This document shows positions 10,124 to 35,625 of a stretch of DNA of 56,986 bases, in pieces (the stretch's first letter is position 1; every line of letters begins with the position of its first letter). The DNA is taken from the NCBI GenBank assembly GCA_027886905.1, contig JAPCJO010000007.1, positions 1 through 56,986 on the forward strand, given 5' to 3'. Under the pieces are notes generated by a model, which did no database searches, was not told where the DNA came from, and worked only from the letters and a program-made list of their open reading frames with translations. The stretch comes from Nitrososphaerota archaeon. Lineage in GTDB: Archaea > Thermoproteota > Nitrososphaeria > Nitrososphaerales > Gagatemarchaeaceae. The position numbers and the translations under genes are program-made.

Positions 10124-10948
10124 ATGAATATAACAGTCTCAAAGTCCCGCACCGTCGGCGTGCAGTCCGACCTCATCACGGCCGAGAATCTCACGGCCGG
10201 ATACCCGCGCAAGACGGTCTGGCAGAACGCCAACTTTGCGTTTGGGCGCGGAGAGTTCGTGGCGGTGATAGGGCCCAACGGGGCGGGCAAGACCACCCTC
10301 TTTCGCCTGCTCCTCGGCCTGCAGCAGCCCATCAGCGGGTCGATCAAGATCTTCGGCAGTCCGCCCAAACGCGGAAACCCTCAGATTGGGTACGTGCCGC
10401 AACGCCACATAGTGGACAGCGAGACGAACATCGAGTCCCTCGAGCTGGTGAGGCTGGGGCTCTCGGGAAAGAAGTGGGGCTTCAACCCGTTTGTCCACAG
10501 GGACCGGGAAGCCGCCTTCGCTGCGCTCGAGTCCGTCGGCGCGACGGAGCTGGCTCACCGCCCTCTCGGCGTATTGTCCGGAGGAGAGCTCCAGAGGATA
10601 TTCCTTGCGGAGGCGCTTGTCAGCAAGCCGGACATATTGCTGCTCGACGAGCCCCTCTCGAACCTCGATCTGAGGCGCGAGACGGACATGCTGCACCTGG
10701 TCAACGACGTAGTCCGCACTCAAGGCGTGACGGCCCTGCTCATAGCTCATAACATCAACCCGCTCTTGCCGCACCTCGACGAGGTGGTCTACGTCGCGAA
10801 CGGGAAGATAGCGACGGGGAAGCCGAGCGAGGTCCTGACTTCGGAGAGTCTTACGGCGCTCTACGGAGTACAGGTCGAGGTGTTGCGCGACCCCCACGGC
10901 AACGTCGCCATCATAGGCATCGAAGAGCACCACGGTGCCTTGGCATGA
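10124..10948 (+). CDS. Metal ABC transporter ATP-binding protein (ZnuC/MntB type)
   Basis: A 274-residue ABC ATPase that powers the metal importer. It has Walker A GPNGAGKTT (about residue 50), Q-loop region IGYVPQRH, signature LSGGELQRIF, Walker B LLLDEPLSNLD, and the switch His in LLIAHNINPLL. The length and the VGATELAHRPLG insert match the Zn/Mn importer subclass. ATG 10124 was chosen because it follows the binding-protein stop by three bases. Its own stop overlaps the permease start in ATGA (10945-10948). Confidence 0.93.
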   Translation: MNITVSKSRTVGVQSDLITAENLTAGYPRKTVWQNANFAFGRGEFVAVIGPNGAGKTTLFRLLLGLQQPISGSIKIFGSPPKRGNPQIGYVPQRHIVDSETNIESLELVRLGLSGKKWGFNPFVHRDREAAFAALESVGATELAHRPLGVLSGGELQRIFLAEALVSKPDILLLDEPLSNLDLRRETDMLHLVNDVVRTQGVTALLIAHNINPLLPHLDEVVYVANGKIATGKPSEVLTSESLTALYGVQVEVLRDPHGNVAIIGIEEHHGALA

Positions 10949-16473: not shown

Positions 16474-18792
16474 ATGTCGAAAAATCCCATCGACGAAGCG
16501 ATGGTTCGTTATCGCGCAATCGCGGTATTACTGCTGTCGTTGTTGGTGGTTTCAGGAATCCTTGGAATTTTCGCGCTCCCCAATCCGGCCAGCGCGGCCG
16601 CATCGGTCGACACGGGGGCGAACTGGGAAAACATCAACTACAACATGAATGGGACTAACGATTCCCCCCAGACCGCCATCGGTCCGAGCAATGTGGGCAA
16701 CCTAGTGATGAACTGGACTGTCCCAATGCCGTCTACCGACCCAACGTGGGCGCAGGTCAACGGTGCTAACTGCTACCCCAACTGCGCGACTTGGGCAGTC
16801 GAGCCGGGAGCAGATTCGCCTCCCTTGATCGTGCAGGGAATCGCATACTTTGTCACTAACCAGGGCGTTGTCTACGCTCTCAACGCCGAGAACGGAGTCC
16901 AGGTCTGGAGCAAGGCGATCACCGCGAACTTCCAGACGGCATTGAAGACAGTGCCGCTCATCGAGAGTCAAGTCGGGGCAGGGGACCTCTCGGTATGCAG
17001 CTCCACGACTTGCGGTTACAACGACACATTCTGGTGCAGCAGCACGGTGAATCCGGCCATCAACTGTGCCTCGCCAGTGGAGCACAAGCACGGGATCAAC
17101 TACCTGACGATAACTTACAACGGCACCCCTGAAGGCATCATAAGCGTCACGGGCTTCGACTGCGAGGTCTGGGGCTTCAACGCCATCACCGGCGACGTCG
17201 CGTACCACATCACCAACATCTGCGCAAACGTGCCAGGAGACGGCGCAGGCGCCTATCCTGCCACCTACACCTCCGACCCACCTGAGTACTACGGTGGGAT
17301 GCTCGTTTACGTAATGGGCGGCTACACCGACATGGGCGGCAGGACGTTCCTGGTGGCGTACAACGCGACCAGCGTCCTGGCAGCGGGGGCAGCCGGGTTC
17401 AACGGAGAGTGCGCGGCGGGAAGCGGGACCTATTCCCCCGGCGGCACTCTGTACGCGACTTGCGCTCCCGCCACAGCCGGGCAGGGGCCAATGTGGCAGC
17501 TCTTCCTTCAGCCGCCAAGCACGGGCGACGCCAACTGGGACAACGAAGCCTGCCAACAGGGGTGGGTCTTCGACTATTCAGCCTTCGAGGCCAACGGCAC
17601 AACGGGAATTCCGTGCACCAGCATCCCCAATAGCGTGAAGACCGATCAGGGTGGCGACTGGGGAGTCCCGAAGGCCGCAGCGTCGGGTGTCTCGACTTCA
17701 TGGGGACAATACGCCATCGACAACAAGACGGGAATCATGTACTTTGGCACTGGCGAAGCAGGCCCATTCGAGTACTGCTACGGGCCGACGTGTCCGGCCA
17801 ACGCCAACGAAAGGCCCGGGCTCAACCTCTACTCCTCAAGCGTAATGGCAGTGGACCTCCAGAGCGGAAAGATACTCTGGTGGTACCAGATGCTGCCGCA
17901 CGGCCTGAACGACCAGGACGCGTCGTGGAACACCATAATCGGGTCCACAAATGGCACTGGGGCAATCTTCAAAGGCGACAAGGAAGGGATTCTCTTCTCC
18001 CTGAACGCCCAGACGGGCAAGGCAAACTGGGTGTACGTCAGCCCAACCGTGAAGTACGAGCCTGGCTCACTGCCCTATGACCCGACGAACGCGACACAAA
18101 TGTTGACTCCGTGGCCCGACTACCCCAACGCGACTTGGATACAGTCGCCTGGGCTGGGAGGCTCGCTCGAGAGCGACCTAGCGTACGACGGGCAGAACAT
18201 CTACGGCGCGTGGTTCAACAGCGCTCCAATTGTATACAAGATGGACAACAGCACCCAGTACGCCGACACGGTGAGGACTCTCAACTGGCCAGACAACACC
18301 ACCGTGACCGCCATCAACGCGAACACGGGCAAGGAGGTCTGGAGCCGCTTCTTCAACAACTTCGTCTTCAGGGGAGGCATGACCGTGACCAACGGCATGC
18401 TGATAATCCCAACAGGGAACGGGACAATCTACTTCCTGAACACGAAGGACGGGAGCACGATCAGCAAGCTCTACGACGGCTCCCCGATGTTCTCCGACCC
18501 GACCATCGGGCAAGCGGCGAACGGCCAGTGGGTGATGCTGCAGATACTCGGAGGCGGAAGGTGGCTTTCAGTGGGAGATGTGGGAGCGACGCAGACCCAG
18601 CCGGGAGCGCTGATGGCGTTCACCGTCGGGACGGGTACCGGAGTAGGCACCACGAGCGTATCGACCACGGCGATTGCTGTGGCGAGCAACCTGCCACTGA
18701 ACTACATATCCTATGCCGCGGTCACGTTCGCGATAGTGGTCACAGTGGCCAACGTCGTGATCCGCGGTCGTGGCCGCAAGTCCGGCGGATAA
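16474..18792 (+). CDS. PQQ-type beta-propeller dehydrogenase 1, secreted and membrane-anchored
   Basis: A 772-residue quinoprotein of the alcohol dehydrogenase type. A signal anchor spans residues 13-40, and a C-terminal helix (about 742-764) ends in RGRGRKSGG. Propeller repeats recur as GVVYALNAENGVQVWS and IMYFGTG-type blades. The segment around the catalytic loop reads ERPGLNLYSSSVMAVDL then QMLPHGLNDQD, where D480 and D482 match the Asp-x-Asp that in XoxF-type enzymes is the catalytic base plus an extra lanthanide ligand. The Asn expected in the GTGN loop is Glu (YFGTGEAGP). Adjacent-Cys disulfide is absent, but Cys-rich loops (NCYPNC) occur. Predicted to oxidise alcohols or sugars outside the cell. 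Confidence 0.85.
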   Translation: MSKNPIDEAMVRYRAIAVLLLSLLVVSGILGIFALPNPASAAASVDTGANWENINYNMNGTNDSPQTAIGPSNVGNLVMNWTVPMPSTDPTWAQVNGANCYPNCATWAVEPGADSPPLIVQGIAYFVTNQGVVYALNAENGVQVWSKAITANFQTALKTVPLIESQVGAGDLSVCSSTTCGYNDTFWCSSTVNPAINCASPVEHKHGINYLTITYNGTPEGIISVTGFDCEVWGFNAITGDVAYHITNICANVPGDGAGAYPATYTSDPPEYYGGMLVYVMGGYTDMGGRTFLVAYNATSVLAAGAAGFNGECAAGSGTYSPGGTLYATCAPATAGQGPMWQLFLQPPSTGDANWDNEACQQGWVFDYSAFEANGTTGIPCTSIPNSVKTDQGGDWGVPKAAASGVSTSWGQYAIDNKTGIMYFGTGEAGPFEYCYGPTCPANANERPGLNLYSSSVMAVDLQSGKILWWYQMLPHGLNDQDASWNTIIGSTNGTGAIFKGDKEGILFSLNAQTGKANWVYVSPTVKYEPGSLPYDPTNATQMLTPWPDYPNATWIQSPGLGGSLESDLAYDGQNIYGAWFNSAPIVYKMDNSTQYADTVRTLNWPDNTTVTAINANTGKEVWSRFFNNFVFRGGMTVTNGMLIIPTGNGTIYFLNTKDGSTISKLYDGSPMFSDPTIGQAANGQWVMLQILGGGRWLSVGDVGATQTQPGALMAFTVGTGTGVGTTSVSTTAIAVASNLPLNYISYAAVTFAIVVTVANVVIRGRGRKSGG

Positions 18793-25699: not shown

Positions 25700-26227
25700 T
25701 TACGAAGCCGTGGCAGGCCGCGCCCTGTCGCCGGAGGGGCTAGACGGGCCGAGGAGGAACGCAGACACACAGGCCCCATAGTGCCCCTTCAGTTCGTCGG
25801 GCAGGAACGCGTAGCTCCTTACGACCTTTCGGCACCCCTTCGTGCCGCATTCGCACCTCATCGAGTAGCCTTCCCAGCCGACGTTAGTCGAGTAGTCGAA
25901 GGTCACCTCCTCCCCCGCCTCGATTCGGCGGAGCGCGACTATCCTCGTCCTCCCCATTATCACGCAGTTGGGCTCGCACGAGTGGTTCATGAACCACCCC
26001 GTCGACCCCTTCTCCGGCACCACATACTTGTCGTAGTCGACCTGGAAGCAATAGCGCCATAGCCTCTTCGGGATACCCTTGATCCACTTCTCCTCGCCGG
26101 CGTAGTCCCAGACGAGGTCCCCGAGCTCGATTCGCCTCGCGGCGAAGACCCCCCGCCCCTTCGCGCCCGCCGCGCCGACGCGCAGGGCAGACCCCTCGCC
26201 CTCCTCCTTGATGGTGCGCCGGGTCAA
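25700..26227 (-). CDS. SET-domain protein methyltransferase
   Basis: A 175-residue single SET domain with post-SET motif. Seen: GAKGRGVFAARRIELGD (SAM-binding N-terminal strand), FMNHSCEPNC (NHS motif with structural Cys), EEVTFDYSTN (catalytic Tyr), and the post-SET zinc cluster MRCECGTKGCRK. These are the key residues of lysine methyltransferases, including histone methylases in eukaryotes and a Methanosarcina SET protein that methylates a chromatin protein. A bacterial or archaeal non-histone substrate is equally possible. The TTG start 26227 is leaderless below a CTCTATAAAAGG box (about 26252-26263). It shares its promoter region with the divergent regulator at 26295. Confidence 0.88.
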   Translation of the reverse strand: MTRRTIKEEGEGSALRVGAAGAKGRGVFAARRIELGDLVWDYAGEEKWIKGIPKRLWRYCFQVDYDKYVVPEKGSTGWFMNHSCEPNCVIMGRTRIVALRRIEAGEEVTFDYSTNVGWEGYSMRCECGTKGCRKVVRSYAFLPDELKGHYGACVSAFLLGPSSPSGDRARPATAS

Positions 26228-26294: not shown

Positions 26295-27068
26295 TTGAGC
26301 CATCAGCTTCTCACGGACGACACCGCGTCGCCGTCGAAGGGCTGGGTCAGGGACGGCGTCCTCTCGTACCTGGCCAGGCGCCCTGGGACTGCCACGGAGA
26401 TCGCCAGAGCGCTCGGGGTGTCCAAAGCGACCATCTCCTACCACACGAAGGCCTTGATCAGGAGGGACATGATAGAGATTGCCGACATCAAGAGCATCCG
26501 GGGCGGGGTCTACAGCAAGACCTACTCGCTGAAGGAGGGCTCGCTCGCACTCGCCAGGCGGAAGGAAGATCAGACCGGCTCCTTGACTAAGCTCGATGAG
26601 AGGTTCGAGAGGCTCCTGATGAGCATGCGCCTGGGACCGGGCCGAAAGCCCGCCGACGAGATGGAGATATTCCTGTATCACCTCTTCAGGCTGCTTGCGG
26701 AGTCCGACTCCCTCGACGAACGCATCTTCGAGGACTATGGCCGCCGAGTCGGAAACGGGCTCGTCTCTCCCTCGCTGAGGTTCTCCAGCTTGAGGAGCGG
26801 TTTGAAGGAGCTGGCGGAGTACCTCGCCGCCGAGGGGTTTGCCGAGGTCACCGCCTCCCTGAGGAAGGGGCAGGAGCCGAGGCTCGTTTGCTCGGGGTGT
26901 TTTGAAAACAAGGAGCACGGAAGCTTGGTCTGCTCGTTCACGAAGGGGATGCTCACGGGGGCCATCAGGGCGAGGGACGGCGGGACGCTGCGCCTAGAAA
27001 GGGCGAGGCAAGAGGCGGGGACGCCCGGCTGCGCCTTCGCAGTGAAGAGGAGGAGCTTCAAGTCCTGA
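26295..27068 (+). CDS. ArsR-like winged-helix regulator with C-terminal V4R-like domain
   Basis: A 257-residue regulator. Residues about 15-75 form a winged helix (GTATEIARALGVSKATISYH, KALIRRDMIEIADI). After a helical linker, the C-terminal ~110 residues have the pattern CSFTKGMLTGAIRA-then-GCAFAVKR, similar to V4R/4-vinyl-reductase-like small-molecule or zinc-binding domains found in archaeal regulators. Cys residues (VCSGC, VCSFT, GCAF) could bind metal. It precedes the PqqC-family gene in the same direction with the two frames touching, so it may control it. The start is TTG 26295. Confidence 0.75.
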   Translation: MSHQLLTDDTASPSKGWVRDGVLSYLARRPGTATEIARALGVSKATISYHTKALIRRDMIEIADIKSIRGGVYSKTYSLKEGSLALARRKEDQTGSLTKLDERFERLLMSMRLGPGRKPADEMEIFLYHLFRLLAESDSLDERIFEDYGRRVGNGLVSPSLRFSSLRSGLKELAEYLAAEGFAEVTASLRKGQEPRLVCSGCFENKEHGSLVCSFTKGMLTGAIRARDGGTLRLERARQEAGTPGCAFAVKRRSFKS

Positions 27069-27169
27069 GCAAGAGAGCGAAAAGGTCGAGAAGGGGACCG
27101 CCTTCTGGGGAAGCCAGGGGCGGCGGAAGCTCGCCTGGGCAAGCCGACAGGGGGGCGAACGCGCGACCT

Positions 27170-27880
27170 CTGACGAGGGACGAGTTCCTAGATCTCCTTG
27201 GAGACAAGCTCAGGGAGAAGGACCAGGACAAGCACCCGCTGATGCTCATGCTCTATCAGGGAAAGCTCACCCCGAAGCAGGTCAGGGCGTGGGTCATCAA
27301 CAGGTTCTACCTGCAGAAGAATATACCGATCAAGGACGCCGCAATCCTCTCCAATTGTCCCGAGACTGACGTGAGGCGGCTCTGGATCGGGAGGATCATG
27401 AGGCGGGAGGGCCTGGGTGGGAGCATCGGGGACGTGGAGGGTTGGGTCGGCTTCGCAGAGTCGGCGGGCGTGGCGAGGGACGACATCCTGCGGGCGAAGT
27501 GCCTCCCCGGGGTGAGGTTCGCGGTGGACGGATACGTCAACTTCGCGAGGAGGGCCGACTGGACCGAGGGCGTCGCCGCCTCCCTCATCGAGTACTTCGC
27601 GAAGGGAGAGCTGATCAAGAGGATAGAGGCCTTCAAGCGACACTACCCCTGGATAGAGCCAGAGGGCTACAAGTTCTTCATGTCGAGGCTCGGGCAGCTC
27701 GACGAAGCCAACGAGACGACCCTTCGCATAGTGCTCCGATACTGCCAGACGAGGGAGATGCAGCTGCGCGCGATCGACGCCGCCGAATCGATGGCGGACA
27801 TCTACTGGAGCCTCCACGACGCGATATTCGTCGCATACGTAATCCAGAACAGGCCGCTCGCCGACTCGCTCTCTGGCTAG
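27170..27880 (+). CDS. PqqC-family protein (pyrroloquinoline-quinone synthase homologue)
   Basis: About 236 residues if read from the CTG at 27170, or 271 from the CTG at 27065 that overlaps the upstream stop (CTGA). No ATG, GTG or TTG exists upstream of 27242, but homology clearly begins earlier: LTRDEFLDLLGDKLREK. The match to PqqC is strong: VRAWVINRFYLQKNIPIKD, AAILSNCPETDVRRLW, LPGVRFAVDGYVNFARR, HYPWIEPEGYKFF. PqqC performs the last oxidation and ring closure in PQQ synthesis. By eye, the active-site His of the N-terminal YHxxHP and the His of the DHDG loop are replaced (Gln and Arg), while the HYPW His is kept. Activity may differ. Confidence 0.75.
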   Translation: MTRDEFLDLLGDKLREKDQDKHPLMLMLYQGKLTPKQVRAWVINRFYLQKNIPIKDAAILSNCPETDVRRLWIGRIMRREGLGGSIGDVEGWVGFAESAGVARDDILRAKCLPGVRFAVDGYVNFARRADWTEGVAASLIEYFAKGELIKRIEAFKRHYPWIEPEGYKFFMSRLGQLDEANETTLRIVLRYCQTREMQLRAIDAAESMADIYWSLHDAIFVAYVIQNRPLADSLSG

Positions 27881-29799
27881 GCGCGCCTGGCGGCATTCCT
27901 CAGCGACCTGTTCTCGACCAGGAGGACCACCACGACGGCGGCAAGGAGCCCGACCGCCGCCGCTGGGACGTAGGTCTCCCAGGAGGGCGGGAGCGACGAG
28001 GATGGGAGCAGCGTGTACGCCATGAGGTCGCCTGGGACCCCGCCGCCGAACGCGCCGTACGACGCGGCGCTGGTCAGCTGATAGAGGAAAACCCGCCCGT
28101 CGATCCCTGACCCCAGCGTCGGGCTCTCGTAGAGCGACGGCCCGACGTAGAGGTCGTCGACCTGCTTCCCAGTCTTCGCGTCCAGGATGTGGATGCTCCC
28201 GTCCAACGTCCCGGCGAAGATGAGCCCGTTGCTCGCCGTGAGCCAACCTCGAAATGGGATCGTCGCGAGAGAGTAGCTCCACGCCACCGTGCCGTTCGAG
28301 GCGTGGACGGCGTAGATCGTCGTGTTGGCCTGGAGATAGTCCGGCGTGAGGTCTGTCACGCCCCAGACCTGCCCGCCCTCGACGTTCACGGGAGCCACCT
28401 GCCCGAAGGTGCAGAAGTTCATGGTCGCGACGTATATCGTCGAGTAGGCGAAGGCGATGTCCGACTCGATGGCCCCGTTCTCCCCCGGGCACTGCTCGAA
28501 TTGCTGCGCGGAAGGGTAGTTAATCCACGGGAGGCTGCCAGAGTAGTTGTCCGTCACGACGTAGTTCGCGTTCCCCGTGAGGTGCCTCGTCACGGTTGGC
28601 GGATTGAAGTACCAGATGAGATTCCCGGTGAGGGCGTTGAGCGCGTAGAGGTATCCGTTCTTGCACGCCTTGAAGACCGCCTCCTGCGTCCTCCCGCCCT
28701 GAGTGACGTTGCCCAAGACCGTGCTCCACCCGCAGTCAAAGTCGAAGAGGTCGTGGGGCGTGGTCTGGTAGAACCAGATCATGTGGCCGTTCGTCGCGTT
28801 CAGCGCTATGACCGAATCCGCGTAGAGGTCGGGTCCGGGCCTGTAGGTCCCGTTCCAGCCGGGGGACGGCTGGGACGTGGAGACGTAGACTATCCCGTGC
28901 CTGGCGTCCACCACCGGGTCGCCGAAGCTCGGCCCGGCCCCCGCGAGCGGCCCGGCCGCCCCTGGGCCATTAAGGCTCATGGTCCCCCAGTCGCCGGTCA
29001 CGGGGGCGACGTTCCCATGGCAAGGGGGCGGGCAAGACTGCGCGTCCCAGCTCGCGTTTCCGCCAGCCGCCGGCGCCACGTACCACCTCCACAGGAGGTC
29101 CCCGCTCGCGATGTCGTACGCGGCCACGAAGCCCCGCCCCACGTCGGTTCCGACGGAGACCGAGCTCGTCCATATCATCGTGTCCCCGTAGAAGACCGGA
29201 GGGACCTGCGTCGCGGCGTAGAAGCCGGCATTCCCCGGGACGTCCTTGCAGATGTCGGAGATCTTCATGACAAGGTCGCCCGTGGCCGCGTTGAGCGCGT
29301 CCACCGAGCAGTCGGGCATGCTCACCCAGACGTCTCCCCGGTAGTAGTTGATCCCGTGCACGTGACCAGTGAGCGGCCCGAGGGGCAGGCCGGTGGTGTT
29401 TAGGGTAGGCACGTAGGACCAGAGCTCAGCGCCCGTCTCGCCGTTTATGGCGTAGACGGTGAGGTAGTTGGTCACGACATACACCGTGCCGTTCACCACG
29501 AGGGGCGGAGAGATCGACCCCTGCCCGGTTACGTTAAGGCCCGGGACGTTCGGCGCCGCGGGGAACGGGAAGCTCCAACCCAGCTGGAGGTCCTGGGCGT
29601 TGGACGCGCTGATCTGGTCCTGGGCAACATAGTTGGTGTGGTTCGCGTCCGAGTTCATCGTGGTCCAGTCGACAGCCGACGCGGCAGAGGGGTCGGACTT
29701 CGACTCTGCAGGGGTCGGTGGGACGGTAAGCGAGATGAAGAGCAGCAAGAGCAGCGCCGCCACGATCGGACCCCGCCCTCTTGCCGCGTTCACAGTCAT
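27877..29799 (-). CDS. PQQ-type beta-propeller dehydrogenase 2, secreted and membrane-anchored
   Basis: About 640 residues from ATG 29799, chosen because a CCTTAAAGT box (29830-29838) puts transcript start near 29806; a longer in-frame start at 29868 lies upstream of that. It has a signal peptide, propeller repeats (VYVVTNYLTVYAINGETGAE, GRGFVAAYDIASGDLLWRW), the RPGPDLYADSVIALNATNG segment, and TPHDLFDFDCGW, where D353 and D355 match the catalytic Asp plus the extra lanthanide Asp of XoxF. A C-terminal helix (VPAAAVGLLAAVVVVLLV) anchors it outside. It overlaps the PqqC-family gene by four bases tail-to-tail. Predicted to oxidise alcohols or similar at the cell surface. Confidence 0.87.
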   Translation of the reverse strand: MTVNAARGRGPIVAALLLLLFISLTVPPTPAESKSDPSAASAVDWTTMNSDANHTNYVAQDQISASNAQDLQLGWSFPFPAAPNVPGLNVTGQGSISPPLVVNGTVYVVTNYLTVYAINGETGAELWSYVPTLNTTGLPLGPLTGHVHGINYYRGDVWVSMPDCSVDALNAATGDLVMKISDICKDVPGNAGFYAATQVPPVFYGDTMIWTSSVSVGTDVGRGFVAAYDIASGDLLWRWYVAPAAGGNASWDAQSCPPPCHGNVAPVTGDWGTMSLNGPGAAGPLAGAGPSFGDPVVDARHGIVYVSTSQPSPGWNGTYRPGPDLYADSVIALNATNGHMIWFYQTTPHDLFDFDCGWSTVLGNVTQGGRTQEAVFKACKNGYLYALNALTGNLIWYFNPPTVTRHLTGNANYVVTDNYSGSLPWINYPSAQQFEQCPGENGAIESDIAFAYSTIYVATMNFCTFGQVAPVNVEGGQVWGVTDLTPDYLQANTTIYAVHASNGTVAWSYSLATIPFRGWLTASNGLIFAGTLDGSIHILDAKTGKQVDDLYVGPSLYESPTLGSGIDGRVFLYQLTSAASYGAFGGGVPGDLMAYTLLPSSSLPPSWETYVPAAAVGLLAAVVVVLLVENRSLRNAARRA

Positions 29800-29929
29800 T
29801 CCTCGCCCGAGGACGTCGCGCGTGCGCACTTTAAGGTTGGAGAGGGGCGGCCTCCCTTGAGACGACAAGCGGTCCGGGTCGAGTCGCGCTCGGAACGGTC
29901 ATAAAGGGCGTTATATTGCGCCAAGTGAC

Positions 29930-31432
29930 GTGGAAGCGCTCGCGAAGCGGCGCAAGTGGTTCTCTCTCGCGGCCGTGAACATCGGCAACTTCGTCCCGCC
30001 GCTCGACACGGGGATAATGTCGCTGATACTCCCCACGATCTCCATCAACCTCAAGGCACCGATCTCGCTGGTGCTCTGGGTCCCCCTCGAGTCCCTCATA
30101 ATCACCGCGGCCTTCATGCCAATTTTCGGGAGGTTCTCAGACGCGCACGGGAGGAAGCGCTACTTCATCCTCGGCCTCGCCCTCTTCTCGATTGGCGCTT
30201 ATCTCTCTGGGAACTCGCTGACGATCTATGACCTGCTGATCTACAGGTTCGTCCAGTCGTTGGGCGGGGCGTTCATCCTCTCCAACGGCAGGGCCCTCAT
30301 CGTCGACGCCTTCGAGCCCAATCAAAGGGGTTTCGCGCTCGGAACTCACATCTCGACAATCTACATCGGGATGACAGTCGGCGTCGCGCTCACAGGGACG
30401 ATAGTCGACGTGACCCAGACACTTGGATGGAGGTACGTCTTCTACGCGGGCTCGGCGATTGCCGCGCTGGCCATCCCGATATCCATCGTCGCGCTCAAGG
30501 AGAGCCCCCGGAACCTCAAGATGAAGACGGACTGGCTGGGTGCCCTCTTCTTCGCGGGGGGGCTTGGGGCCGCACTGGTGGGGCTGACTTCTTACTCGTC
30601 TAACGGAACGACGCCCATTAGCATCTACATACAGAGCATCTACATCCCGTTTCTGCACTATTTCCTCTATCCCAACGTGGCGATAACGATACCCCTAGAC
30701 TACATCGCCATAGTAGGGGTCGTGTCCACCGTCCTCTTCGTGGCGAGGGAGATGACCACGCCTCAGCCCGTCATCAACTTTCACACCTTCAGGACCAACT
30801 CTATGTTCGCGTCGACGAACTTCTCCGCCCTCTTCGTCTACATGGCTCACTATGGCACCTTGATACTGCTGTCGTTCTACCTCGAGCTCATTCAGCAGGT
30901 CAGTCCGCTCACCGCGGGGCTCCTCCTGACAGTCGAGCCGCTCTCCGTCACGATCTTCGCGCTCTTCGGAGGGTGGATCGCAAGCAGGACGTCCAGCCGG
31001 GACCCCTCGATGGCGGGCTTGGTGATCGTGACCGCCTCGCTCCTCCTCTTCAGCACCCTGACTGAAACGACGTCGACCACGACAATCGCCTTCCTCCTGG
31101 CCATGCTCGGCGCCGGCGTTGGGATATTCGCCCCCACCAACACGAACGCCAACCTCGCGTCGGTCCCTCCCGGCGACCGCGCCTCCGCCAACGGGATCCT
31201 GGGGATGATGAGGTCGACCGGGCAGAGCGTGAGCCTCGCGATAGGGAGCATCCTCCTTGGGCTCCTGCTATTCGGGAAGAACCTCGCGAAGAACGGCGGG
31301 ACTTTCACTCCTGAAAAGTACGTCGCTGCGATTCACCTGTACTTCCTCTTCGGCGCCGCCCTCGCGGCCCTCGCTGTGTACTTCGCCTACAGGGGCCGCG
31401 AGCCTACGGGCCCGTCCCGCGAGCTTGTGTAG
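29930..31432 (+). CDS. MFS transporter, DHA2-like, 14-helix type
   Basis: A 500-residue major facilitator transporter with about 14 hydrophobic segments, the drug:H+ antiporter-2 layout. The conserved loop after helix 2 reads GRFSDAHGRKRYF (motif A), and GVGIFAPTNTNANLA plus GDRASANGILGMMRSTGQSV resemble the EmrB/QacA central motifs. Substrate unknown; export of organics or acids is typical. The start is GTG 29930, about 29 bases below a CATAAAGGG box (29900), so leaderless. It overlaps convergently with PQQ dehydrogenase 3 by 29 bases, placing an efflux pump inside the quinoprotein region. Confidence 0.92.
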   Translation: MEALAKRRKWFSLAAVNIGNFVPPLDTGIMSLILPTISINLKAPISLVLWVPLESLIITAAFMPIFGRFSDAHGRKRYFILGLALFSIGAYLSGNSLTIYDLLIYRFVQSLGGAFILSNGRALIVDAFEPNQRGFALGTHISTIYIGMTVGVALTGTIVDVTQTLGWRYVFYAGSAIAALAIPISIVALKESPRNLKMKTDWLGALFFAGGLGAALVGLTSYSSNGTTPISIYIQSIYIPFLHYFLYPNVAITIPLDYIAIVGVVSTVLFVAREMTTPQPVINFHTFRTNSMFASTNFSALFVYMAHYGTLILLSFYLELIQQVSPLTAGLLLTVEPLSVTIFALFGGWIASRTSSRDPSMAGLVIVTASLLLFSTLTETTSTTTIAFLLAMLGAGVGIFAPTNTNANLASVPPGDRASANGILGMMRSTGQSVSLAIGSILLGLLLFGKNLAKNGGTFTPEKYVAAIHLYFLFGAALAALAVYFAYRGREPTGPSRELV

Positions 31433-33407
31433 GGGTCCGTCTCTTCAGCAGCACGTACATGGCAAGCACGACCACCACGACTCCTAGGACGATGATTATC
31501 GGTTGCTCGAGTCCTGCAATCGGTTGCCCCGTCGATGAGCTAGTGCTCGTGCTCGATGTGGAACCTGTGCCGGTCGTTGACAAGCCTCCAGGAAGCGAGT
31601 AGGCGACCAGTATTCCGGGGGTCGCGCCGCCCAGTTCACCGCCTCCCGCGGGCGCGAAGACCTCCATGTTCCCGTTGCTATCCTCTCCGATGGACACTCC
31701 TGAAGCCCCAGTGCCTCCTAAGTTCTTGGTCTTGAGGAGGGTTCCCGTCTGCTGGTTGAACTCATAAAGTATCCCCGCCCTGTCGACGACATACAACACC
31801 CCTCCGCTCACCACCGCCGAGGACCCCTGATACCTGTTCGGCAGATTGGAGTGCCAGACCGTCTGTCCTGTCGAGAGGTCTATCGAGTAGACGGTCGCGT
31901 TCTGAGAAGCGGAAGGGTCGCCGGTGTAGAGATACCCGCTTATCGTCACGCCCTTGTAGTAATACGGCGCCGGTGACATTTCGCCACACGCGTTCTGAGT
32001 CACCGCGTAGAGCATGTTCCCGGATATTGCGGGAGCCATCTCGATTCCCCCGTCCGTGCCGGGGCATATTTCCTGGTTGTTGCCAAAGAGCGACTGGGAT
32101 GCAGTGAGGTTTGCCGCCGGGGTCGAGTTGCTTGTGAGACCATCGTTCCAGTTGTTGATTCCGGGCGGGCCTACTACAATCGGCTTGTAGACCGGCTTTC
32201 CTGTGGCCGAGTTGAGGACGTAGATCTCGTTGTTCTTTGACGCCTGGGTGACCACCTGGACTGCCGTGCCGTTGATCGTCACCGTCGAGAGGCCCACGCT
32301 CCAACCCCCTTCGTGCTCCGTGATGTCGTGGGAAGTCATCTGGTAATACCACAACATCTTCCCATCGGTCGTGTTCAGCGCCACGATACAATCGGTGTAG
32401 AGGTTCGGGCCCGGCCTCAGGGACGCGTCATAAGGGTCAGATGGGTGACCGGTCGAGAAGTAGATCACCCCCGTCTTGTTGTCGACCGCTATCAACCCCC
32501 AGGCGGCTCCCCCTCCGGCCAGGTTCTGTTCTTGAGCTGTCGTCCCCCAATCGCCGGGGTAAGGCGTGATGTTCCCGGAGGGCTGTCCGTAGTTCACTGT
32601 CGTCCCGTTGGCGAGGGTCACCATGTCTTGCGAGTCCCAGTTCGTGTCTATGGGTCCGCTCGAGGGAGGAGTGGAGTACCAAATCCACGACATGTTCTTG
32701 GTGTTGATGTTGTAGGCCGCCACAAACCCCCTCCCGCCGTAGTCTGTCGTGGAGGCGCGGACTATCAGGTTGTCACCGATAAGGATCGGCGCCTTCTCCC
32801 CGTAGTATGTTCCCGTGTTGCCGAGGATGTTGGCGGCGACGGGAGGGATCGTCCAAAGCACCGTCCCGTCTAGTGCATTGAGGGCGTAGACGGTGGTGTC
32901 CGAAGCCATAACGAAGATTGTCGCGTTGTTGTACTGCGTGGAACCGTACTCGGAGATGCCGCTTATCACATAAGCCCCTGCCCACCACTTCTCCCCGATG
33001 AACTTGGTCATGTTCACCTGAAATGGGCTGGACCAGGCCAGATTGCCAGTCGCAGCATTCAGTGCAACGACGCTGTTGTAAGGCGTGGCGATGTAGACGA
33101 TGCCGTTGCTGACCAGCGGCTGGGCCTCTATCCCGAGGGCGGGCGGGGCACCTGGGATGCTGAAGGGGTTGACAGGAATCTGGTAGATCCAGTTGACCCC
33201 GAGGTCCTGGACGTTGTTTATGTTTATCACATTCTGGGGGTCGTTGTTCGTGTTCTGGTAGTCGAAAGACGAGGCAGGCCAGTTTGCGTTCGTTGCCGGG
33301 GTGGTCGCCTGTGCGCGGACCGTCGCGTTAGAAAAGCCGCCGAACCCGAGCAGGAACATGACGGCGATAAGTGTAAGCCTTGCTAAATTTCCTCTAAAAG
33401 ACCCCAT
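31404..33407 (-). CDS. PQQ-type beta-propeller dehydrogenase 3, secreted and membrane-anchored
   Basis: A 667-residue quinoprotein. It has a signal peptide (LTLIAVMFLLGFGGFSNATV), propeller blades such as GIVYIATPYNSVVALNAATG and GGRGFVAAYNINTKN, the RPGPNLYTDCIVALNTTDG segment, a Ser/Thr linker (STGTGSTSSTSTSSSTG) and a C-terminal anchor helix ending KRRTPTQARG. In this copy the Asp-x-Asp is replaced: TSHDITEHEGGW gives E364 and E366 at the positions of the catalytic Asp and extra lanthanide Asp, so its metal use or activity may differ. The GTGN Asn is His (YFSTGHPSD). A CTTATAAAGTC box (33429-33438) makes the ATG at 33407 leaderless. Confidence 0.85.
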   Translation of the reverse strand: MGSFRGNLARLTLIAVMFLLGFGGFSNATVRAQATTPATNANWPASSFDYQNTNNDPQNVININNVQDLGVNWIYQIPVNPFSIPGAPPALGIEAQPLVSNGIVYIATPYNSVVALNAATGNLAWSSPFQVNMTKFIGEKWWAGAYVISGISEYGSTQYNNATIFVMASDTTVYALNALDGTVLWTIPPVAANILGNTGTYYGEKAPILIGDNLIVRASTTDYGGRGFVAAYNINTKNMSWIWYSTPPSSGPIDTNWDSQDMVTLANGTTVNYGQPSGNITPYPGDWGTTAQEQNLAGGGAAWGLIAVDNKTGVIYFSTGHPSDPYDASLRPGPNLYTDCIVALNTTDGKMLWYYQMTSHDITEHEGGWSVGLSTVTINGTAVQVVTQASKNNEIYVLNSATGKPVYKPIVVGPPGINNWNDGLTSNSTPAANLTASQSLFGNNQEICPGTDGGIEMAPAISGNMLYAVTQNACGEMSPAPYYYKGVTISGYLYTGDPSASQNATVYSIDLSTGQTVWHSNLPNRYQGSSAVVSGGVLYVVDRAGILYEFNQQTGTLLKTKNLGGTGASGVSIGEDSNGNMEVFAPAGGGELGGATPGILVAYSLPGGLSTTGTGSTSSTSTSSSTGQPIAGLEQPIIIVLGVVVVVLAMYVLLKRRTPTQARGTGP

Positions 33408-33501: not shown

Positions 33502-35550
33502 TTAATATCGCCTTTTCGCCGACCGGGCCCACGCCAACGAGATGATGATTGCAGACGCGACCGCCACGACCGCAACCGCCCGCGTCTCTAGCAGTGTCTC
33601 GCCGGCGTGGGCGGCCGGGGGCACGGCTGGAAGGGTCAGCGCCTGGATGAAGCCAGGGAACGGCGGACCCCAGCGGGTCGACCCCATGTCGGTCAGGACG
33701 AGCGTCATCTCGCCGTTCGCGTCCTCGCCGAGGGACGGCTGTATGATGAGCGAGCCTCCGACGTTCATGGTCGAGAGGAGCTTCCCCGTGTCCTCGTCGA
33801 GCATGCGCATCGTGCCGTCGAGCGTGGAGACGTAGACAACCCCTCCGCTCACGGTCAGGCCTCCGCGGTAGGGGATGTACGGTATCTCGTAGCTCCACTT
33901 CACCTGACCGTTGGCCGCGTCTACCGCGTAGATCGTGGCGTTGTCAGTCCCCACCGGCCTTATCGTCAGGATCTGAACCCCCCAAGTGAACTCCCACTGC
34001 GTGACGTTCTCGGGAGTCTTGGGAGGGCCTACGTCGCTGTAGTTGAATAGTTTGGGCTCGTTGTAGGTGGCTGCGAAGACCAGGTTCTTCGCCGGGTCAA
34101 AGGCGAGGTCGGCCTCCAGGGCGCCCGTGTCGGAGGGGCTCTGCACTATGGGCTTGGTCAACGGATAGCCGTCCCAGTTGTACTTGTCCATCTGCGTCGC
34201 GTTCAGGGGATTGAGCGGGATGACGTTCTCATAGTCGATTGATGGCGGCTTGAGGAACCAGAGCATCGATCCCGTGTTGCCGTTGAGCGCGAAGATGTAT
34301 CCGTCCTTGCAGCCCTTGAACACGACCGGTGTGCTCTGGCCGTTGATGGTCTCGTTGGCCAGCATCACGTTCCACGAGCAGTCAAAGTCCCCGAGGGCAT
34401 GTGGGATCGCCTGGAAGCCCCAGAGCATCCTCCCGGTGGTCATGTTGATGGCGAGCACGGACGCCGACCAAAGGTTCGGGCCGGGGCGGTAGGTCGCGTT
34501 CCAGTCAGGCCCCGGGACGTTCGTCCCGACATACGCCACGCCCGTCTCCTCGTCGATGGCCCATGCGCCTCCCCAGGCAGTGCTCGCTCCTGCGAAGCTC
34601 GTCGTCCCGTTGAACCCGAAGGTCCCCCAGTCCCCGACGAGCATCTGGCTGAGTTGGCTCTGAGGGAGTGCCTTCAGGTCGACCTCGCCCGTCCCGTTGA
34701 AGATGTAGGCGTGGGTCATATTCAAGACCGTGTCGAGCGACCAGTTCGGGTCGCTCCCGTCTTGGGGCGGAATCACGTACGTCCTCCACATGAACCTGGG
34801 AGTGGTCGTGGTTACGTTCCAGGCCTCCAGGAAGCCCCTTCCTGCGCTGTCGCCCTCGGTGACCGAGGGCGAGAACATCAGGACGCCTCGCTGCTGGTCG
34901 ACGAGGATGCTGGGCGTGTCGACGTCGTAGAGGCCGTAGCTCCCAACTATCTTGTTGGTCTGGCGGTCCGAGACGAAGGGGTTGAAGTCCAGGACGATGT
35001 CGCCCGTCGTCGCCTTTATCGCGAAGACTTGGTACGTGTTGGACACCGCCCAGATCAGGGGCTCGTTCCAGATGTCGGTCGTCAGGAAGATAGCGTGGTA
35101 GTGCCCAAGCGGTATGCCCAACGTACCTGGGACCGACGGCTGCAGGTATCGCGAGTAGTTGGCCATTATCGGAAGGTCATCGTACCAGACGACCTCCCCG
35201 TTCTCGGCGTTCAGGGCGTAGAGACGGCTCCAGTTCGTCATCCCGTAGATTATCCCCTCGTATATCAGGGGCGTCTGCATGACCCCCTCTGCTTCCTGGA
35301 TCTGTCCTGCGGGCGCCGCCGGAACGGGGAACGTCCACTTCACCTGCAGCTGGTTGACGTTCTGGCTGTTGATCACCGTCTGGTTGTCGTAACTCCAGTT
35401 GAGCGGGAAGTTGTTGTCGGGGCCGCTCCAGTTCACGTTCGTCGGAGTGCTGGCGCCCTGAGCGGAGGCCCCCGAACTCACGAGAAGGACGAAGAGCATC
35501 GCGAGGGCTCCAAGGATGGCTGGTGCTGACATTGGCCTTGGAATCCTCAA
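33502..35550 (-). CDS. PQQ-type beta-propeller dehydrogenase 4, secreted and membrane-anchored
   Basis: About 682 residues from TTG 35550. The longer GTG 35574 lies only about 14 bases below the CTAAATCC box (35584-35592), too close to be transcribed, so the TTG is preferred; ATG 35532 is also possible. Signal peptide: ILGALAMLFVLLVSSGASAQ. Blades include IYGMTNWSRLYALNAENGEV and AGRGFLEAWNVTTTTPRF; the RPGPNLWSASVLAINMTTG segment precedes IPHALGDFDCSWN with D388 and D390 (Asp-x-Asp). A C-terminal anchor (AVAVVAVASAIIISLAWA) ends ARSAKRRY. Same strand as copy 3; the two stand apart by about 95 bases with separate promoters. Confidence 0.87.
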   Translation of the reverse strand: MRIPRPMSAPAILGALAMLFVLLVSSGASAQGASTPTNVNWSGPDNNFPLNWSYDNQTVINSQNVNQLQVKWTFPVPAAPAGQIQEAEGVMQTPLIYEGIIYGMTNWSRLYALNAENGEVVWYDDLPIMANYSRYLQPSVPGTLGIPLGHYHAIFLTTDIWNEPLIWAVSNTYQVFAIKATTGDIVLDFNPFVSDRQTNKIVGSYGLYDVDTPSILVDQQRGVLMFSPSVTEGDSAGRGFLEAWNVTTTTPRFMWRTYVIPPQDGSDPNWSLDTVLNMTHAYIFNGTGEVDLKALPQSQLSQMLVGDWGTFGFNGTTSFAGASTAWGGAWAIDEETGVAYVGTNVPGPDWNATYRPGPNLWSASVLAINMTTGRMLWGFQAIPHALGDFDCSWNVMLANETINGQSTPVVFKGCKDGYIFALNGNTGSMLWFLKPPSIDYENVIPLNPLNATQMDKYNWDGYPLTKPIVQSPSDTGALEADLAFDPAKNLVFAATYNEPKLFNYSDVGPPKTPENVTQWEFTWGVQILTIRPVGTDNATIYAVDAANGQVKWSYEIPYIPYRGGLTVSGGVVYVSTLDGTMRMLDEDTGKLLSTMNVGGSLIIQPSLGEDANGEMTLVLTDMGSTRWGPPFPGFIQALTLPAVPPAAHAGETLLETRAVAVVAVASAIIISLAWARSAKRRY

Positions 35551-35625
35551 GACAAGCGCGCCTCGCGGTCCCACGCGACTTTCCGGATTTAGACCCTTCC
35601 TTCAAGCGGCCGGGGTGACCTTCAT

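Follow-up and report, generated by a model that had tools for sequence, protein, structure and literature searches.

A gene that resembles pqqC, lying beside quinoprotein genes in an archaeal genome, raises a simple question: is PQQ made here, or does the gene product do something else? Published interpretations already lean on genes of this kind. In the Gagatemarchaeaceae, a gain of pqqC has been inferred in the ancestor of the mesophilic clade and linked to the abundance of quinoprotein enzymes (PMC10640624), and another published paper took the annotation of a PQQ synthase to indicate a capacity for making the cofactor. Here we analyse such a gene in a 56,986-nucleotide stretch of contig JAPCJO010000007.1 from a Nitrososphaerota archaeon (the window, meaning this whole stretch), together with relatives in its family (f1, inferred to be Gagatemarchaeaceae/UBA183), order and phylum. 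Genomes, contigs, loci and families are denoted by G, C, L and f numbers. The gene and its 5' region comprise:

27065-27880, plus strand: PqqC-like gene, 271 codons and a stop, with its probable CTG start at 27065; residues 1-34 form a basic low-complexity tail and residues 37-264 the PqqC domain
27065-27068, plus strand: CTGA overlap, in which the CTG lies over the TGA stop (27066-27068) of the upstream regulator gene
27047-27055, plus strand: Shine-Dalgarno-like GAGGAGGAG, read from the sequence, 9 bases 5' of the CTG at 27065
27170-27172, plus strand: second in-frame CTG, an alternative start, which is ATG in G004 and has no start counterpart in G007

The first-pass annotation matched the protein to PqqC over nearly its whole length, and the family models agree. 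The TIGR02111 (PqqC) model aligns from residue 37 with 224.7 bits (E=1.1e-66), below its curated cut-off of 240 bits, and a phmmer comparison with Klebsiella PqqC gives E=1e-59. The same model yields 220.6-230.4 bits in full-length f1 relatives (G004, G007, G014 and G016) and 209.9 bits in G117. Among family models, matches are limited to PqqC, CADD and the broad Pfam family TENA_THI-4, of which PqqC is a member, and in a search against solved structures the CADD/4-aminobenzoate synthase entries reach only E values of 1e-6 to 1e-7. An AlphaFold2 model built on a 22-sequence alignment (pLDDT 89, with the basic N-terminal tail disordered) has exclusively PqqC structures as its best Foldseek matches. 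The PQQ-bound Klebsiella entries 3hlx (a Y175F variant) and 1otw come first (TM 0.81, E=1e-15), and apo PqqC (1otv) lies below them (TM 0.76). The predicted fold is that of PqqC (the heme-oxygenase fold).

Where the gene begins takes more argument. The open frame runs from 26906 to 27880 on the plus strand and, as had been seen at the outset, holds no ATG, GTG or TTG 5' of 27242; the only in-frame NTG codons before the ATG at 27242 are CTG, at 26930, 27029, 27065 and 27170, plus one adjoining 27242. The homology does begin near 27170, as first proposed, with the TIGR02111 match entering at about 27173. An NTGA overlap with the upstream gene is common to the closest relatives, and the proposal of a non-standard start holds. 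G004 (86% identity) has GTG at the equivalent start, in a GTGA overlap with the stop of the upstream HTH gene, and G007 (80% identity) has TTG there, in a TTGA overlap with the same stop. Because these codons sit at the same spot, each in an NTGA overlap, the CTG at 27065 is likely the initiation codon, to judge from the aligned sequences; a true GTG or TTG misread at one base is also conceivable. The regulator and PqqC-like genes of G014 and G016 share TTGACTGA as their overlap; G117 has a TTG directly after the stop of the upstream gene. Given a conserved overlapping NTG start, no 5' frameshift (an alternative raised in the first-pass annotation) is needed. A start at the ATG at 27242 was rejected, since the conserved first helix (RDEFL...QDKHP) common to the relatives would be lost, and a start at CTG 27170 is possible but weaker, as G007 has no start counterpart there. 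The PqqC-like frame of G314 (L099, about 10188-10230, minus strand) also has no ATG, GTG or TTG before the Met of HPFM, and it carries an in-frame TGA in its N-terminal region. With the G314 frame alike, departures from a standard 5' end may be a recurrent feature of the REG clade, to which we now turn.

Residues were mapped by alignment to Klebsiella PqqC numbering. The altered positions are:

27221-27226, plus strand: D53-Q54, replacing Klebsiella Y23-H24
27404-27409, plus strand: R114-E115, replacing Klebsiella H84-D85; RE is invariant in the archaeal clade
27611-27613, plus strand: L183, replacing Klebsiella H154 of the O2 pocket
27674-27676, plus strand: F204, replacing Klebsiella Y175, the change engineered in Y175F PqqC (3hlx) here occurring naturally
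27791-27793, plus strand: M243, replacing Klebsiella K214

In Klebsiella numbering (used from here on), the changes are Y23 to D, H24 to Q, H84 to R, D85 to E, H154 to L, Y175 to F and K214 to M, and the kept residues are R50, Q54, K60, R80, Y128, E147, R157 and R179. Among the residues of the base/O2-pocket set (H24, H84, H154, Y175, R179 and K214), R179 alone is kept. The replacement of the N-terminal YH by D-Q and of the DHDG His by Arg, both described from the window alone, is borne out by the alignment (Y23/H24 and H84), and the losses of His154, Tyr175 and Lys214 lengthen that list. The HYPW His, previously taken as the remaining active-site histidine, has to be given up: it is Klebsiella H164, which is not catalytic and varies among bacterial PqqCs (Asn in Pseudoduganella, Ile in Methylococcaceae). 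Ligand binding to PqqC brings H154 and R157 into the active site and shifts Y175 to the molecule centre (PMC2294125). H154 by itself is not diagnostic, as the PqqC encoded in a complete pqqBCDE operon (G233:C36) has Met there.

The same replacements recur in what we call the REG class (nine sequences; families f1, f30 and f45). Here R84, E85, L154 and F175 are invariant; R50, K60, R80, E147, R157 and R179 are present in 9/9 and Q54 in 8/9, and H24, H84, H154, Y175 and K214 are each found in 0/9. The REG sequences form one clade with moderate support (87/86). The dN/dS ratio is 0.05-0.13 for the closest pairs within f1, which, together with the clade-wide fixed replacements, argues that the altered site is maintained by selection and is not decaying. 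Judged by these substitution patterns, the PqqC-like gene is real and under selection. What has been retained, namely R50, Q54, K60, R80, E147 and R157, we take to be ligand contacts placed around the PQQ carboxylates in 1otw. Going by the titles of their PDB entries, Y175F and H154S PqqC were crystallised with PQQ bound, so losing those two residues does not abolish binding.

Gene content bears on the question in a second way. We searched for pqqB, pqqD and pqqE; pqqA is too short for reliable detection. The search of the genome that the first-pass annotation had called for could be made in a 77%-complete draft, and neither the window genome nor G004, G007 or G014 contains pqqB, pqqD or a pqqE over the cut-off. 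No pqqB or true pqqE was found in G314 (99% complete, a single contig, with a REG-class gene), G384 or G498, and pqqB and pqqE over the cut-off are absent from 17 genomes and from another 4, G314 included. A canonical pqq set elsewhere, which the first-pass annotation had also raised, was not found in the genomes searched, bar one probable contaminant. This is G233, whose complete pqqB-C-D-E operon (L092, G233:C36:1230-4253) was recovered by the same searches, so that their sensitivity is adequate. G233 is a draft from the order and has 8% contamination. Its operon lies on a short contig (4.6 kb) and is probably a contaminant because the encoded PqqC groups with bacteria. A hidden pqqE was rejected: radical-SAM matches stay below 90 bits (cut-off 381), and the same model matches all 14 control genomes. 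In G016 and G008 a PqqD-domain protein adjoins a radical SAM protein. The G016 copy of the latter falls short of both the PqqE model (79 bits, cut-off 381) and the mycofactocin maturase model (103 bits, cut-off 265); the pair was rejected as PqqE, being closer to mycofactocin-type or heme-type enzymes. In its own right this cluster of a PqqD-domain chaperone, a radical SAM protein and a membrane protein gene (L093:1394-2639, G016:C163; also G008:C249) is a possible archaeal peptide-modification system. As far as gene content can tell, and leaving aside the probable contaminant operon of G233, none of the genomes tested gives support to PQQ being made by the established pathway.

How does the gene track quinoproteins? 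It had been called an unusual find in archaea, and it is not a one-off: PqqC-family genes occur in 16/300 genomes of the order (a count that leaves out weak, CADD-like matches and includes the probable contaminant contig of G233) and in 3 others in the phylum. The proposed link to quinoproteins holds, both in position, as the gene adjoins a quinoprotein gene, and in co-occurrence. Within f1 (46 genomes) the gene is present in 7/10 genomes with quinoproteins vs 0/36 without (Fisher P=2e-6), and within the order (300 genomes) in 16/54 vs 0/246 (P=2e-13), P values that ignore shared ancestry; conversely, quinoproteins occur in 16/16 order genomes with a PqqC-family gene vs 38/284 of the rest. Co-transfer of a gene cluster could be the cause. 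Since 38 of the 54 quinoprotein-bearing genomes of the order are without the gene, general quinoprotein use does not depend on it. One genome of family f4 (G027, 95% complete) has about 60 candidate quinoprotein stretches and no PqqC-family gene in the order-wide search. The relevant neighbours in the window are:

16474-18792, plus strand: a further quinoprotein, PF01011 84.8 bits
26295-27068, plus strand: winged-HTH regulator overlapping the PqqC-like gene, with cysteine pairs in its C-terminal domain (Pfam HTH_20/HTH_5)
27877-29868, minus strand: quinoprotein (PQQ-type beta-propeller), convergent with the PqqC-like gene and overlapping it by 4 bases; PF01011 191.7 bits
29930-31432, plus strand: MFS transporter, beside quinoproteins also in G004, G007, G014, G037 and G050
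31404-33407, minus strand: second quinoprotein, with Glu at the catalytic Asp position (EHE)
33502-35574, minus strand: third quinoprotein of the cluster, from the same sequence cluster, with a PF01011 match

The quinoprotein at 27877-29868 scores 221.8 bits with TIGR03075, below the cut-off of 480, and PDB alignments give it a DFD motif like that of lanthanide XoxF enzymes. In alignments of 31404-33407 to MDH/XoxF we observe EHE, a Glu to Asp and an Asn to Ala change. PQQ binding by these proteins is uncertain because their metal/PQQ ligands are altered; they may be lanthanide-dependent, or may depart from the usual way of binding PQQ. Secretion is predicted for the quinoproteins, which could thus pick up PQQ straight from their surroundings; the need for a cytosolic carrier is then not obvious.

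The other neighbours are conserved to varying degrees. The regulator gives a weak full-length match to MsvR (NF053755, 55.8 bits over 12-234/236, cut-off 220), and a homologue stands beside the PqqC-like gene in several families. Recurring with it are an SBP_bac_6 substrate-binding protein, a two-domain permease, an ABC ATPase, an NMT1/THI5-like protein (no evident signal peptide), MFS transporters and quinoproteins. This set is nearly full in G314, and most of it is found in G014, G498 and G384. The window retains the HTH gene, the three adjacent quinoproteins and the MFS gene; the importer and NMT1 genes of the set are not adjacent. The NMT1/THI5-like family (L077:16046-16969, L099:4902-5843, L101:8421-9311) has conserved W..PE and D.YH..E motifs, lies repeatedly near PqqC-like genes across the phylum and has no solved relative by sequence. 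A SET-domain gene, unusual for archaea, lies divergently 5' of the HTH regulator in a position conserved between the window (25700-26227, minus strand) and G007 (L076:8354-8854).

Because the catalytic residues are swapped and no other pqq genes were found, the protein probably handles a PQQ-like cofactor rather than making PQQ, and there is a strong case that it is not a canonical PQQ synthase. Of the first-pass proposal, a divergent PQQ synthase or an oxidase with another product, the PqqC kinship, the start and the quinoprotein link stand, and the synthase is disfavoured. Our preferred reading, held tentatively, is that the protein binds or salvages PQQ or a related quinone/precursor, as a carrier, scavenger or sensor. 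Another activity is possible; ligand binding or salvage is the better fit, since only residues for binding survive in the active site. If these still bind PQQ or a close relative, the protein would carry, scavenge or sense it, without performing the eight-electron oxidation. It would then form the carrier, scavenging or sensing part of a cofactor-salvage module, whose other parts would be the ABC importer, the cytosolic NMT1/THI5-like protein and the HTH regulator, and which would supply the secreted quinoproteins.

Possible too, if somewhat doubtful, is that the protein is an enzyme for another (poly)carboxylate, for example an ABC-imported compound, working without a cofactor or by a different kind of catalysis, with R84-E85 as a new catalytic element. 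The invariance of R84, E85, L154 and F175 across three families is what a new function would lead one to expect, the importer and NMT1-like genes are conserved neighbours, and marine paralogues with a CADD-like HxxxDxxH signature adjoin the same importer. Yet the kept residues presumably surround the PQQ carboxylates in 1otw, the presence of the gene tracks that of quinoprotein genes, and the REG class is without the metal-ligand set.

That the protein is a PQQ synthase after all is unlikely. The 224.7-bit match, the association with quinoproteins and the nearly canonical marine copies over the TIGR02111 cut-off (G037a and G050a) speak for it. However, five catalytic/O2-pocket positions (H24, H84, H154, Y175 and K214) are changed clade-wide, pqqB and true pqqE are absent from the REG genomes searched, and variants of Klebsiella PqqC at H154, Y175 or R179 reportedly cannot complete PQQ formation (mutant work from Klinman). 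A broader and rather improbable reading is that the extracellular quinoproteins of these archaea use a cofactor other than pqqABCDE-made PQQ, obtained through a precursor-importing module that converts or loads a related quinone. The module would consist of the ABC importer, the cytosolic NMT1/THI5-like protein, the MsvR-like regulator and the remodelled PqqC-like proteins, and that cofactor would account for the changed metal/cofactor ligands in the quinoproteins.

We consider it very unlikely that the protein works with the overlapping HTH (MsvR-like) regulator as its ligand sensor, reporting quinone/redox status without delivering cofactor. The two genes overlap in f1, and in the marine family a homologue of the regulator is still next to the gene despite a different orientation, but no such regulator adjoins the gene at the marine G037a/G050a loci or in G384, and sequence cannot separate sensing from carrying. 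A decayed or mis-assembled canonical pqqC (a frameshift or lost start) is barely credible: it could appeal to the missing ATG, GTG or TTG start and to the draft state of the window genome, but independent genomes repeat the residue changes and have a corresponding overlapping start, dN/dS is well below 1 and codon GC3 is 0.88, which rules out a frameshift or pseudogene and leaves the one-base error at the CTG as the residual case.

The preferred reading of a binding/salvage protein puts published claims of PQQ synthesis by these archaea in question. With window-family copies lacking the PqqC catalytic residues, and their genomes lacking pqqB and a genuine pqqE, the cofactor may have another source, or another identity, than PQQ made in the cell, and the conserved neighbourhood names other candidate parts.

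Several known systems help to place the protein. TenA thiaminase II salvage modules offer an analogy only, in that a heme-oxygenase-fold protein lies beside an ABC importer and an NMT1-like protein; TenA itself was rejected, as the protein matches no TenA family model and has about 14% identity to TenA structures. CADD/4-aminobenzoate synthase (TIGR04305; 1rcw, 8va9) shares the fold superfamily (TM 0.71, 18% identity), but the protein scores 57.8 bits against a cut-off of 200 and has no diiron/manganese ligands. The Glu/His/Asp ligand set of CADD/HDO, including HxxxDxxH, is absent, the corresponding stretch being FFMSRLGQLDEANE, and a metal-dependent HDO or CADD function was rejected on this ground. 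The window genome has, moreover, a separate CADD-like gene (L106:9896-10573, G000:C34:25895-26572; TIGR04305 158.6 bits, cut-off 200). This gene adjoins folB, with folP (dihydropteroate synthase) nearby, and by its setting in the folate cluster is likely a 4-aminobenzoate synthase. Many ammonia-oxidiser matches to the PqqC model are weak (<50 bits); CADD-like genes may explain such matches across ammonia-oxidising archaea and may have inflated earlier pqqC counts.

Closer at hand are the PqqC-like proteins of family f14 (G037, G050 and others), probably heterotrophic marine thaumarchaea, which belong to the same gene family as the window protein. Most copies likewise adjoin quinoproteins or substrate-binding proteins, some with an HTH regulator, but they fall into several paralogue classes and lack the REG residue set. 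One class is nearly canonical (H24, H84, Y175, R179), the G037a/G050a copies also keeping K214 and exceeding the TIGR02111 cut-off; another has W50/L179; a third has CADD-like diiron ligands. HxxxDxxH occurs only in the class-c paralogues (G037c and relatives), together with H54, E83/E84 and E147 (L082:9590-10294, L085:9525-10238, L102:10864-11559, L103:2837-3541). These proteins, otherwise PqqC-like with a CADD-like metal site, are encoded directly after substrate-binding protein and permease genes; since one marine class carries this site, the archaeal gene family has indeed diversified in its chemistry.

The nearest system remains PqqC itself (TIGR02111; PDB 1otv, 1otw, 3hlx). The archaeal protein differs in having H24, H84, H154, Y175 and K214 replaced, in coming from genomes without pqqB or pqqE, in belonging to a separate archaeal clade and in scoring below the curated cut-off, whereas about 40% identity over the full length, the seven-helix fold and the ring R50/Q54/K60/R80/E147/R157/R179 are common to both.
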